DNA from: an uncultured Psychroserpens sp.
GTDB taxonomy: Bacteria; Bacteroidota; Bacteroidia; Flavobacteriales; Flavobacteriaceae
Assembly: GCF_947492715.1 (NCBI RefSeq)
Contig: NZ_CANLNS010000002.1
Span: forward strand, 62,001 to 126,000
Direction of reading: 5' to 3'
DNA length: 64,000 nt
In this document: in pieces, positions 3,848 to 63,841 of the stretch
Layout: every line of letters begins with the position of its first letter
How positions within the stretch are numbered: position 1 is the stretch's first letter
Notes under the pieces: generated by a model
Seen by the model: the letters and a program-made list of their open reading frames with translations, nothing else
Database searches by the model: none
Told to the model about the DNA's origin: nothing
Made by a program: the position numbers and the translations under genes

Positions 3848-4309
3848 TTAGTTTTTCGTCAGAGCATCTAAGATCGCAATCTCGTTGGCCTTTAAACATT
3901 TTATAGGCAAGTAAATACCTTGATTCGATTTGGTTTTTAGCGCAAAATAGTTTTTCCTTTTTAGGATCGCTTTTAAGTTGGAGTAATCTAATTCCGATTT
4001 ACTTTTGTCTGACCTAATAATTATTTTTTCTGGTTCAATATCATAGTCGAGGTCAAAGTTTTTGAACCAAGATTTTCGAGTTAAAATAAGTATTAAGGGT
4101 TTGAGTGTGTAGTAAACTCCGAAAATGATCATAAACCCAGCATAGCCAATACCCGTTTTGGTGTTCCCATTAAAATATTGAAAAAGTCCCATGATTAAAA
4201 TAAGTGGTCCACCAATTAGCCTTAAAATGGAAAAGAAAATACCATAGCCAAAGAAGTATTCATTCAAAAATATTTTTATTTTTTCAAATTGAGATAAATT
4301 TTGATGCAT
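3848..4309 (-). CDS. membrane protein with PH-like cytoplasmic tail
   Basis: The 153-residue product has two membrane helices (about 22-42 and 53-75). A soluble tail follows with the pattern YDIEPEKIIIRSDKSKSELDYSNLKAILK, then a basic RKNYFALKTKSNQGIYLPIKCL. That order, two helices followed by a small beta domain ending in a helix, is typical of YcxB-like or bacterial PH-type membrane proteins. No enzyme motif is visible. The gene is separated from its minus-strand neighbours by about 90 bp on each side and is probably transcribed on its own. Assignment to a named family is tentative. Confidence 0.65.
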   Translation of the reverse strand: MHQNLSQFEKIKIFLNEYFFGYGIFFSILRLIGGPLILIMGLFQYFNGNTKTGIGYAGFMIIFGVYYTLKPLILILTRKSWFKNFDLDYDIEPEKIIIRSDKSKSELDYSNLKAILKRKNYFALKTKSNQGIYLPIKCLKANEIAILDALTKN

Positions 4310-4394
4310 GGTTATGGTCGTTTTATACTGCTTTATTATTTAGGACTAAGATTATAATGGTTTTAGTTTTTCCAAACGTATATCTACGTATTTT

Positions 4395-59950: not shown

Positions 59951-60709
59951 TTAGATACTTTTTAAAAACAGATTGATTTGATTTAAAATCTGACTCCTAT
60001 TTCTTACGGAAATAACTTCTTCCATATTATTTGATAGTAAGAGCTTTGACTTTTTTTGAATACCCAGAACATGGGATAAATTAACCAAAACAGACCGGTG
60101 AATTCTTAGAAATTCTTTGCGAATTAATAGATCTTCAAAGTGTTTTAGAGACCCTTGAGCCAAGAAAGTTTCATTATTATCTGTGTAAAACTTGGTATGA
60201 TTTCCGTCTGCAACACATTTTATTATGGAATCTATCTTAACAATTTTTTGATTTCTACCTACGTCAAGAATTATTTTAGATTTTTTCTCATGAATAAATT
60301 CATTAAAAAACTGGAATTTATGTAAAGTGTATAAGCGTTCTTTTAATTTTAAATAACGATGAAGTGTTTTTGACAATATAATTTCATCAATAGGCTTGTC
60401 AATAAAGTAAAAAGCAAAGTGATCCATCGCTTTTTTAAGATATTGATTATGACCAGTAATAAAAATAATCTCAAAATCTTGATATTTAGACGATTTTAAA
60501 ACATCAAAAATAGTTCCATCAAGGAGTTCAATGTCGGCAAAAATTAGCTCAGGTCTTAATGTGTCAATTAGATGTATTGCCTGACCAACATCTTTGGCTA
60601 CACCATTGATTTTGAATTTATTAAAATTTATTTCAAGAAAATGATTTAGAAAATTAACGGCATCAGAATCGTCTTCAATTATTATGGAATTAATAGTATA
60701 TTTGCTCAC
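59951..60709 (-). CDS. LytTR-type response regulator
   Basis: The 252-residue protein has a receiver domain with acidic residues Glu12, Asp13 and Asp14, the phosphoacceptor Asp59 (LIFADIELL), Thr85 and Lys105 (FIDKPID). A LytTR DNA-binding domain follows with KIVKIDSIIKCVADGNHTKFYT near 160 and a FLRIHRSVLVNLSHV core near 205. Start is GTG at 60709 preceded by an AGAGGGTA sequence. It is divergent from the TPR histidine kinase, and the 5' ends overlap by 26 bases. The predicted target is a lipoprotein gene downstream of the kinase. Confidence 0.92.
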   Translation of the reverse strand: MSKYTINSIIIEDDSDAVNFLNHFLEINFNKFKINGVAKDVGQAIHLIDTLRPELIFADIELLDGTIFDVLKSSKYQDFEIIFITGHNQYLKKAMDHFAFYFIDKPIDEIILSKTLHRYLKLKERLYTLHKFQFFNEFIHEKKSKIILDVGRNQKIVKIDSIIKCVADGNHTKFYTDNNETFLAQGSLKHFEDLLIRKEFLRIHRSVLVNLSHVLGIQKKSKLLLSNNMEEVISVRNRSQILNQINLFLKSI

Positions 60710-62630
60710 TACCCTCTATTATCAAATTTTACATAAAGAAATAAAATTAATCATTAAAAGAGCACTGTTTCTATATTGTTTTTTGTTAAATTTTTTGATG
60801 TTTTCCCAATCGGAAAAAATCAATCAACATTACGTTGACACACTATTAATAGAACCTATAGATTCATTGCAGGTTTCCAATTTTAAAAACATCTTACTAT
60901 CTAATGACGAACTTAAAGGATGGACTAAATATTATGCTCACAAAAGTTTTTTATGTTTAAAACAATCTAAAAGAGATTCTGCATTATTTTATTCAGAAAA
61001 GACAATAGATGTTTATAATAGTGATGAAGCTGGATATACGTATGCAGAAAGGTCATTACAACGTGCATATTATGTTGGTGGTTGGATACATAAAAGACGT
61101 AAGAACTATAATGAATCGTTAAACTTCTTTCTAAAATCTCTTGATATTCATAGAAAATACCCTGATCATTATAAAATTGAAGTTTATATATTGACATCCA
61201 TTGCCGAGATACACCTTGCCATGGGTAATCCCGAATTATCTTTAAGATATCAGAAGCAAATAGAAAAAGACTCGCTTTATAAAACCTCCTATCAAGCGGC
61301 TAATTTGTTTAATCAAATAGGCATTTTATATGGGTATTTGGATCAAAGAGATTCTTCAAAAATTTATTTGCATAAATCATTAAAATACGAGTCTGATCGT
61401 AGCGGTTTAGCTGCTTACACCAATTTGGGCGAGCTTTTTTATAAAGAAGAACAAATGGACTCTGCAATACATTATTTTAGCATTGCTAAGCGAATATCAG
61501 ATACAATTGACATCAGTTCCTTGAGGGCAGATTCTAAGGTTTTTGCTCAGACAAATTATCATTTTGTAGATATTTATAACAACAAGCATGATAAAGAAAC
61601 AATTAATGTATTAACTCGCATCGTTGATTCTGTTACTAGTTTAAAAAAGGTAGATAAAGAAGATAGAGACTTTGTTCTAAATGTATTGGATTACCTTATA
61701 CTAGCTTACGAAAAAGAAAGGCGGTTTAAAAAAGTTAAAGAAAGTTATAAAAAGAAATTTGATGTAGTCACGCTTTTTAATCAAGAATTGTTTAAAGAAG
61801 ATCTGCAAAAGATTGAGGTTGGCTATAAAACTAAACTTAAAGAAGAACAAATATCAAATTTAGAGCAACTTAATAATTCTCAAAAACAAAAATTAGATCA
61901 ACAAAAAATTACGGCTATTGTATCTATTTGCTCTTTGTTTTTAGGGGTGTTATTAATTATTGTGCTGTATAAGCGAAAGACATTAAAGGATAAATATGAA
62001 AAGGTAAATTTAGAACAACGTTTGTTATTGTCTCAAATGAATCCTCATTTTACTTATAACGCTCTCAATTCTGTATATAATTTGTTGGATGTTAATTCAA
62101 AAAAGGCAAAAACGTATTTATTGAGTTTTTCTAAGCTACTGAGAAGTGTTTTAGAAAACTCTCGTAAGGATTTTATTTCTTTAGAAGAAGAAATAGAGAC
62201 ACTAGATAATTATTTAGTATTAAAATCCAAATTGATGGCGAAATTTGAATATGTCATCAATTGTGAACTTACTATTGCTGATATTTTTATTCCGCCAATG
62301 TTAATTCAACCCTTTGTAGAAAATGCAATTATTCATGGTATTAGCGCATTGAAAGAGAGCGGCAAGATTGAGATTACTTTTAGTGTTTCTGAAGATAATT
62401 CTCAAATTTTGAAGTGTATCATTGTTGATAATGGGGTTGGCTATGCCAATGCAATTCATAAAAAATCAAAAAACAAGCCTTCTATATCTTCCGATATCGT
62501 TAATGATAGATTAAAAATCTATGGAGATAAGTTTAAAGTTAATGCTAATTTTCAAATTGTTGATCTCAAAGAAAATGGAGTAGTGTCGGGAACAAAAGTT
62601 ATTTTAGAAACACCTATTATAAAAGAATAA
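60684..62630 (+). CDS. LytS-type histidine kinase with N-terminal TPR sensor
   Basis: The 648-residue sensor has a signal-type segment (KRALFLYCFLLNFLMFSQ), about 350 residues of helical TPR-like repeats (YNESLNFFLKSLDIHRKY near 155, AAYTNLGELFYKEEQMDSAIHYF near 235), a membrane helix near 410-427 and a HisKA_LytS domain with QMNPHFTYNALNSVYNLLD followed by a GHKL ATPase with VDNGVGY. The only upstream ATG is 60684, which lies inside the regulator gene on the other strand; ATA 60741 or ATT 60753 would give a cleaner signal peptide. The N-terminus should be checked. It pairs with the LytTR regulator. Confidence 0.88.
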   Translation: MELIVYLLTTLYYQILHKEIKLIIKRALFLYCFLLNFLMFSQSEKINQHYVDTLLIEPIDSLQVSNFKNILLSNDELKGWTKYYAHKSFLCLKQSKRDSALFYSEKTIDVYNSDEAGYTYAERSLQRAYYVGGWIHKRRKNYNESLNFFLKSLDIHRKYPDHYKIEVYILTSIAEIHLAMGNPELSLRYQKQIEKDSLYKTSYQAANLFNQIGILYGYLDQRDSSKIYLHKSLKYESDRSGLAAYTNLGELFYKEEQMDSAIHYFSIAKRISDTIDISSLRADSKVFAQTNYHFVDIYNNKHDKETINVLTRIVDSVTSLKKVDKEDRDFVLNVLDYLILAYEKERRFKKVKESYKKKFDVVTLFNQELFKEDLQKIEVGYKTKLKEEQISNLEQLNNSQKQKLDQQKITAIVSICSLFLGVLLIIVLYKRKTLKDKYEKVNLEQRLLLSQMNPHFTYNALNSVYNLLDVNSKKAKTYLLSFSKLLRSVLENSRKDFISLEEEIETLDNYLVLKSKLMAKFEYVINCELTIADIFIPPMLIQPFVENAIIHGISALKESGKIEITFSVSEDNSQILKCIIVDNGVGYANAIHKKSKNKPSISSDIVNDRLKIYGDKFKVNANFQIVDLKENGVVSGTKVILETPIIKE

Positions 62631-62676
62631 TTTATCCTTAACTAGCTTCATAATAAAGACTTATAAGTTACATTGC

Positions 62677-62706
62677 TACGTTTAAACTTTAAACGTCTAC
62701 GTTCAG
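62677..62706 (+). promoter_or_regulatory. predicted LytTR operator, two direct repeats
   Basis: TACGTTTAA (62677-62685) and TACGTTCAG (62698-62706) are separated by 12 bp. The published LytTR consensus is two direct repeats of [TA][AC][CA]GTTN[AG][TG] with 12-13 bp between them; the second copy matches fully and the first at all but the last base. The pair lies just upstream of the predicted promoter of the 62794 lipoprotein gene, in the place expected for an activator. Confidence 0.65.
62678..62696. repeat. 19-bp perfect palindrome overlapping the LytTR site
   Basis: ACGTTTAAA and TTTAAACGT form a perfect inverted repeat around a single C. It overlaps the first half-site of the predicted LytTR operator. 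It could be a second operator or arise by chance in AT-rich sequence. Confidence 0.5.
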
Positions 62707-62738
62707 AATATATATTTTTTCAAATTTTAAGTTAACAG

Positions 62739-62746
62739 TACTATTG
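62739..62746 (+). promoter_or_regulatory. weak -7 element of the 62794 gene
   Basis: TACTATTG has one mismatch to TAnnTTTG, and no TTG is present at the -33 position. A weak core promoter downstream of an activator site fits an activator-dependent gene. Confidence 0.35.
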
Positions 62747-62793: not shown

Positions 62794-63783
62794 ATGAAAA
62801 AAACACTTATTTATGGCGTGCTATGTCTCGCACTTTGCTTTTCATGTAACGATGAAATTGACACTCAAGAAACCCCATTATCAAACGAACTAAACCAAAA
62901 CCGAATGCTATCGTTTGAAAGTATGGACGATTTAAAAAATACGCTCGACCAGTTTAGTACATTTAATTCAAACGAAGATTATGAAAATTGGTTGTTACAG
63001 CAAGATTTTAAATCTCTTTATAGTTCTGATGTGGTATCCATAGAGGAAAAAGACAATACGCCATATACCTTTTTATTTATTCTAAATGAAAACAAAGAAT
63101 TTAGAGTTGGTGACAAAATCATTACGTATTCAGACAATCTTTTTTACGAGAATAGTATTGATGAATCTGGACATACAATTAAAGAAAATAATGTTATCGG
63201 TCACTTTGAACAAGAATTATCCGAAGTAGGAGAAACAGAACTATCAGGTAACGAAAATAGGTTAATAAGTATCACAAATGGTTCTGAATATAAACCATCA
63301 TCTGCTTGGAGAGAATTTACGAGACAAAAATATTTGACTAACAATTGTAGCGGACTGGTTTACAAGAGTTTGAAGTATAGATTGATTCATTATTTAGCTG
63401 TCGAGAGTGTTACTATTGGCGCCTATACAACGTCTAATCTTAATTTTAGATTACGAATGAGTTATAAAACGAGTTCAGGATGGAAATATAACAATACATC
63501 AACTGGTAGATTATATGATGTGAACTTGTCTGGGTTTGCACTTATAAGGTTACAAAACACAGCAATACCTGGTACTACTAAATATTTTACTTTAGATGAG
63601 CAAAACGGCTGTTTTAATGCGTACAAAGGAACAAAAACATTCCCAATACATAGCTACACATATTTAACAGGGATACCAAATCTATCGTATTATAAATGGG
63701 ACATAAATATTGCGGGTAGTGTAAAGCACCAAGTTAATGGCGATAAAATTCAAAATATTTTTGATACCACAATTAATTGGTAA
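62794..63783 (+). CDS. hypothetical lipoprotein, predicted LytTR target
   Basis: The 329-residue protein has a lipoprotein signal (LALCFSC, Cys18) and an acidic, beta-rich mature part. An N-terminal segment (MLSFESMDDLKNTLDQFS, YENWLLQQDFKSLYSSD) resembles the opening of several unassigned Bacteroidota lipoproteins. The C-terminal half has NNCSGLVYKSLKYRL and NLNFRLRMSYKTSSGWKY, with no family recognised. It has its own terminator and, upstream, LytTR-like repeats and a weak promoter. Its product would sit in the cell envelope. Confidence 0.8.
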   Translation: MKKTLIYGVLCLALCFSCNDEIDTQETPLSNELNQNRMLSFESMDDLKNTLDQFSTFNSNEDYENWLLQQDFKSLYSSDVVSIEEKDNTPYTFLFILNENKEFRVGDKIITYSDNLFYENSIDESGHTIKENNVIGHFEQELSEVGETELSGNENRLISITNGSEYKPSSAWREFTRQKYLTNNCSGLVYKSLKYRLIHYLAVESVTIGAYTTSNLNFRLRMSYKTSSGWKYNNTSTGRLYDVNLSGFALIRLQNTAIPGTTKYFTLDEQNGCFNAYKGTKTFPIHSYTYLTGIPNLSYYKWDINIAGSVKHQVNGDKIQNIFDTTINW

Positions 63784-63814: not shown

Positions 63815-63841
63815 AGTGGGAGTTAATAACTCCCACTTTTT
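63815..63841 (+). terminator. intrinsic terminator after the 62794 lipoprotein gene
   Basis: AGTGGGAGTT and AACTCCCACT form a perfect 10-bp hairpin around AAT, followed by five T, 32 bp after the stop. It probably also blocks read-through from the convergent partial gene. Confidence 0.9.

Follow-up and report, generated by a model that had tools for sequence, protein, structure and literature searches.

A pair of short direct repeats stands in the window (the whole stretch of 64,000 nucleotides analysed here) between a sensor histidine kinase gene and a gene for a putative lipoprotein, which raises the question of what binds these repeats and whether they control the lipoprotein gene. LytTR regulators are common in Flavobacteriaceae (excerpts of PMC7440613 and PMC5395568), and no description of the target sites of LytTR regulators from this family was found in the literature searched (one open-access collection). 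A preliminary description of the locus had read the repeats as LytTR-type sites in front of an activator-dependent promoter that is served by the neighbouring regulator and kinase. This reading is supported by 15 of 16 related loci, in which the same repeat period recurs at a mostly fixed distance from the -7 element. Judged from the sequence, positions 62677-62707 are probably the binding site of the neighbouring LytTR regulator, which would act as a dedicated two-component activator of the lipoprotein gene and substitute for a -33 element; the basis of this explanation is the sequence, the domains, the orthology, and the repeats with their -7 distance in related loci. The features of the window are summarized in Table 1.

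Table 1. Features of the regulator, kinase and lipoprotein locus in the window
Feature	Position	Strand	Remarks
Response regulator, receiver + LytTR DNA-binding domain, 252 aa	59951..60709	-	GTG start as listed; PF00072 (E 6e-11), PF04397 (E 7.8e-14)
Sensor histidine kinase, TPR region + LytS-type His_kinase domain	60684..62630	+	PF06580 (E 1.7e-18), TPR_12 (E 1.4e-9), HATPase_c weak (E 0.04)
Possible third repeat copy AAGACTTATA, weaker	62656..62665	+	In the 21-bp register of the pair; from the extension rule; weak
Distal regulator repeat TACGTTTAAA	62677..62686	+	10-mer; direct reading and matrix
Proximal regulator repeat TACGTTCAGA	62698..62707	+	21 bp from the distal repeat
-7 promoter element TACTATTG	62739..62746	+	Begins 31 nt after the proximal 10-mer TACGTTCAGA
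Putative lipoprotein, 329 aa, presumed target gene	62794..63783	+	Lipobox CFSC read from the sequence
Intrinsic-terminator-like hairpin with T tail	63815..63837	+	One found; mean of shuffles 0.4

Direct reading of positions 62677-62706 confirmed the repeats and the 12-bp gap reported earlier: TACGTTTAA (62677-62685) is followed after the gap by TACGTTCAG (62698-62706), with 21 bp from start to start, which is the arrangement of a LytTR binding site (direct repeats of 9-10 bp, about 21 bp from start to start). The true gap between the TACGTT hexamers of the pair is 15 bases, and the usual TC at repeat positions 9-10 is missing. The ATG of the lipoprotein gene (62794) follows the second repeat after 87 nt. 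The weak -7 without a -33 was likewise found again, as TACTATTG shares with TAnnTTTG five of its six fixed letters and no -33 element is evident upstream of it in the window. TAnnTTTG is the -7 element of the Bacteroidota primary sigma factor according to the excerpt of PMC7366714, in which it is stated that no -33 element could be identified in Flavobacterium johnsoniae; the corresponding box is TAnnTTT[GA] in most related loci and TACTATTG in the window, and no -33 was noted at the loci studied.

A perfect inverted repeat that was absent from the preliminary description, ACGTTTAAA-C-TTTAAACGT (62678-62696), overlaps the distal repeat. Being a perfect 9-1-9 palindrome, it might itself be the operative element, either as the operator of an unrelated dimeric regulator or as a head-to-head site, but this appears very improbable: perfect 9-bp arms with a loop of 0-3 occur nine times in the 64-kb window, and regarding the 17 related sites (31 nt each), at which the direct repeat is kept, short-loop arms of at least 5 bp are missing in 16 and reach 6 bp in one, with none longer. 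The inverted repeat is therefore treated as incidental.

The two-component pair next to the direct repeats has the domains of a LytTR system. Both domains of the regulator are above the cut-off of their Pfam profiles, and the LytS-type kinase adjoins it, as is characteristic of a LytTR two-component response regulator. Within an alignment of five sequences D59 and K105 of the regulator are invariant; in the kinase the same is true, in five sequences, of H455 of MNPHF, N547 and D582-N583-G584. The N-terminus of the kinase is hydrophobic and includes one transmembrane stretch, as read from the sequence. The two genes are divergent and their listed starts overlap. At the position where the orthologs start, the kinase frame (window 60684-60800) has no ATG, GTG or TTG, and its first in-frame ATG overlaps the regulator gene; the kinase may start at that ATG or at an unusual ATT near 60756. 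The earlier statement that both genes lie just upstream of the repeats holds for the kinase, whereas the regulator gene lies beyond it on the opposite strand. None of the eight best sites in the window, under either model, falls between regulator and kinase, and there is thus no sign of autoregulation; the 'closed circuit' of the preliminary description stays a conjecture.

The presumed target has a lipobox, from which export as a lipoprotein is predicted; its designation as a surface protein in the preliminary description derives from this lipobox only. No Pfam or NCBIfam family matched at E values up to 1, and the single-sequence fold has a mean pLDDT of 34.6. Within the genus, the 22 other genomes gave no match. 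Among 396 other genomes of the family, one full-length relative was detected (in G196, at 23-26% identity), along with seven weak, partial matches (E 3e-4 to 0.0084) and two more in a second search. The 14 kb surrounding the G196 gene contain neither a match to the regulator or the kinase nor a site scoring above 9.3. The lipoprotein gene was kept beside the regulator/kinase pair in no genome examined. Because the lipoprotein is nearly an orphan, comparison across genomes is possible for the regulator/kinase pair but not for all three genes together. The target looks monocistronic, given the terminator-like hairpin behind it.

A close regulator/kinase pair was present in only one of the 22 other genomes of the genus (G008; 43% identity for the regulator and 38% for the kinase), the next best regulator in the genus having an E value of 5e-36; further orthologs were found in G192, G200 and G123 by a search of 397 genomes. 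In G008, AACGCTTATC and AACGCTCGTC were seen by eye at the 21-bp period, and a script found three copies of a AACGCTTATC-like repeat in G200 and two in G123 at the same period, behind the regulator and before a secreted-protein or lipoprotein gene. Genome-wide, ACGCTTATC-N12-ACGCTTATC with at most two mismatches occurs 0 times in G000, twice in G008, once in G192, three times in G200 and once in G123. A first scan of the contigs of named genomes with the regulator query alone confirmed no relative. A further search of named genomes yielded 45 loci, of which L161 and the 15 with the lowest E values (below 1e-53) were analysed; the remaining 29, with 31% identity or less, lie outside the comparison. 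The 16 related loci come from Aquimarina, Aureisphaera, Psychroserpens and MAGs. Four of them (L140, L142, L147 and L152) are identical to L113, L062, L114 and L115, each being counted once; L116 and L152 share one genome, and L141 is closely related to L144.

WACGYTYATC-like pairs with a 21-bp period were found in 15 of these 16 loci, the exception being L145, which has no convincing pair. The pair stands directly behind the regulator gene in 11 loci and before LanC or lanthipeptide-like genes in L149, L150 and L161, with no evident gene behind the site of L151 or behind one of the two sites of L149. In the window the target follows the kinase gene instead of the regulator gene, which speaks against the binding-site reading. 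A divergent kinase neighbour is present in 14 of the 16 loci (not in L151 and L161). The regulator of L161 (6959-7321) consists of the LytTR part alone (120 aa) and has no receiver domain; no kinase match is found nearby, yet the site before the lanthipeptide-like gene persists.

The distance from repeat to promoter was determined at 17 loci, namely the 15 with training sites plus L145 and L116, the last being outside the training set. The best pair per locus was chosen by a leave-one-out matrix blind to the promoter and extended gene-ward by increments of 21 bp. Measured from the last 10-mer, the start of a full TAnnTTT[GA] falls at exactly 32 nt in 13 of the 17 loci, whereas the other 79 offsets combined gave three full boxes. 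The four loci missing the full -7 at 32 nt are L138 (4/6 letters), L143 and L144 (5/6 each) and L145. The untrained L116 fits the repeat/-7 geometry fully. The window differs from its relatives in having 31 nt and a -7 with 5 of 6 letters, against 32 nt and a full box in most loci.

A matrix built from 17 sites of the 15 related loci, with the window excluded and L145 omitted for want of a convincing pair, ranked the window site first among about 128,000 positions in 64 kb, with a score of 15.2 (next 10.9). This score is below those of all 17 training sites (20.5-31.2), whose leave-one-out ranks are partly circular because the sites came from consensus scanning. The possibility that the pair is a chance occurrence in AT-rich DNA, with the lipoprotein gene transcribed independently, has to be weighed here. 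The window site is the weakest of the set, and among 60 simulated 64-kb sequences its score was reached in 11, or in 6 when the -7 was taken into account. Comparable scores also occur in reading frames of its own genome, where five near-matches outscore it on the repeats alone (16.0-21.2); with a symmetric matrix the window site (13.1) is exceeded by three stretches of its own genome that have no -7 box (13.4-14.4). The 4.2-Mb genome contains 19 instances of the pattern ACGTT-N16-ACGTT, against 65 for the reversed-pattern control, so that for want of enrichment the pair alone is unremarkable genome-wide. Sequence alone is accordingly weak evidence for the window site, and the case for it is carried by position. 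Per position the chance in intergenic-like DNA is 6.7e-6 (2.7e-6 with the -7), or very roughly 6e-4 (2e-4 with the -7) over about 90 placeable upstream positions. Regarding the 17 own-genome near-matches to WACGYTYA-N13-WACGYTYA, 16 are located within reading frames, with no more than four of the six -7 letters matched at 31-33 nt, whereas the window site is the only intergenic one, stands before a gene and has 5 of 6 letters. Together with the placement between a two-component system and its neighbour gene, the 21-bp period, the -7 at 31 nt and the first rank given by a model trained outside the window, this makes a chance origin quite unlikely.

If the site is a genuine one, it might still be bound by another LytTR regulator of the genome, or be shared by several. 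The genome contains 20 matches to the regulator, the regulator itself included, and very similar repeats adjoin the kinase gene at three more distant loci (L120, L121 and L124). Against this, no pair at or above the window score with a -7 box was found at six paralogous LytTR loci of the same genome (of the 20 matches), and these six paralogs fall outside the ortholog group in the regulator tree, in which the window regulator joins 15 orthologs on a long branch (support 88/85, not starred). The sites of the orthologs, moreover, adjoin this type of regulator. Recognition of the window site by a different regulator thus seems unlikely; the long branch would fit a site that has drifted along with its own regulator.

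Fourteen more distant regulator loci (L117-L130) had been meant as negative controls. With the symmetric matrix, five of the 14 are at or above the 13.1 of the window: L118 (17.7, the pair sitting within a reading frame), L119 (13.3), L120 (25.1), L121 (19.7) and L124 (20.3). These loci are therefore not clean controls, and recognition is not exclusive to the ortholog clade. In L119, L120, L121 and L124 the pairs lie beside the kinase gene, and a -7-like box follows at 31 nt, complete in L124 and with 5 of 6 letters in the other three (the pair of L119 is weak); the window is thus not alone in having 31 nt. The pairs of these four loci are AACGCTTGTC-like and adjoin the start of a large kinase gene, facing away from it.

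Control by the neighbouring two-component pair would proceed as follows. A signal acting on the TPR part of the kinase, which is probably periplasmic, would lead to phosphorylation of the regulator. The regulator is then predicted to bind both 10-bp repeats from the same side of the helix, their 21-bp period being equal to two turns, and may recruit the housekeeping RNA polymerase to the -7 element TACTATTG in place of the absent -33, whereby the lipoprotein gene would be transcribed.

Among known systems, LytTR regulators such as AgrA, ComE, BlpR and PlnC use direct repeats to act on peptide or bacteriocin genes nearby, and the kinases of these circuits come from another family. The flavobacterial loci differ in that a peptide-like product is seen for only some of the genes downstream. 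Some of these circuits are named in the excerpt of PMC2766830, in which SilA of Streptococcus is reported to use two direct repeats of 10 bp separated by 11 bp. SilA/SilB, described there as an autonomous unit, is similar to the window in its LytTR response regulator and its repeats, but serves peptide quorum sensing, whereas the window has a TPR/LytS-type kinase and a Bacteroidota-type -7. No signal peptide gene was recognised in the 64-kb window, and the target is a putative lipoprotein of 329 aa rather than a GG-leader or modified peptide as in the Com, Blp and Sil quorum-sensing systems.

The LytTR regulatory systems of the LRS type (BrsRM/HdrRM among them) have similar repeat letters, e.g., ACCACTTAT-12 bp-ACCGCTTAT for BrsR, and according to the excerpt of PMC6193735 their repeats are in most cases separated by 12 bp and tend to lie 10 bp above the -35. 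Rows of that source such as those of Bacillus cereus and Clostridium botulinum give 10 bp, a 6-bp -35 and 17 bp, i.e., 33 nt from the 9-mer to the -10, which equals the spacing of the flavobacterial orthologs. It also lists repeats before TATCTTTG in LRS-like operons of Bacteroides, so that such repeats in Bacteroidota are not new in themselves. As presented there, an LRS consists of a LytTR regulator and a membrane inhibitor and is autoregulating, whereas the window has a receiver domain and a kinase, which excludes membership, and no own-promoter site among its eight best. In sum, the geometry of the window and its orthologs resembles that of Gram-positive LytTR promoters (excerpts of PMC2766830 and PMC6193735), which suggests that one activator geometry serves both the Gram-positive -35/-10 and the Bacteroidota -7 promoters. 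With its receiver domain and kinase, and with LRS repeats already on record, the system is best described as a putative two-component activator of the LytTR type that combines Bacteroidota promoter geometry with exchangeable targets.

The promoter code stays constant among related loci as the cargo varies, and the repeats stand there before genes other than the lipoprotein of the window. T9SS-sorted proteins (Por_Secre_tail) are found in L140, L142, L147 and L148, RHS-like proteins in L141 (PF05593) and L143 (own reading), lipoproteins in L152 and the window, and a secreted protein in L116 (signal sequences, own reading). NF038153 lanthipeptide leaders were detected in four of the five small peptides tested (L138, L146, L149 and L150, but not L139, the peptide of which had no NCBIfam match). 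A LanC-like protein was identified by HMM in L138, more weakly and below the cut-off in L146, and by own reading in L149 and L150; in L161 a leader-like peptide lies behind the site, and no intact LanC-like gene was seen. GG-leader-like peptides (own reading) occur in L144 (7978-8972, three in a row) and L139 (7840-8070).

The site and its promoter geometry are testable and can be used to predict targets, including the Aquimarina lanthipeptide and GG-leader-like peptide genes. A wider reading, which we consider doubtful, is that Flavobacteriaceae possess a family of self-contained LytTR switches with a fixed code (WACGYTYATC, 21-bp period, 32 nt, TAnnTTTG) that has been repeatedly re-wired to new extracytoplasmic or peptide cargo; it would be the Bacteroidota counterpart of the Gram-positive bacteriocin and peptide-signalling circuits, with the TPR sensor detecting the product under control (peptide, lipoprotein or secreted protein) or its counterpart from a competitor.

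The lanthipeptide/LanC-type genes under the same repeat/-7 element (L138 7949-9532, L146 7885-9432, L149 7855-9405, L150 11112-12689, and the lanthipeptide-like gene of L161 below 8193 on the minus strand) belong mostly to Aquimarina. The GG-type peptides of L144 and L139 recall the control of peptides and bacteriocins by Gram-positive LytTR systems. In Aureisphaera a second site of G200 (L137, G200:C12 near 29109), with its -7 at 32 nt, precedes an RHS-like secreted protein (own reading) far from the regulator. A second copy of the element in L141 (about 4274-4344) lies 20 nt before an ECF-sigma-like gene (own reading) that adjoins the kinase.
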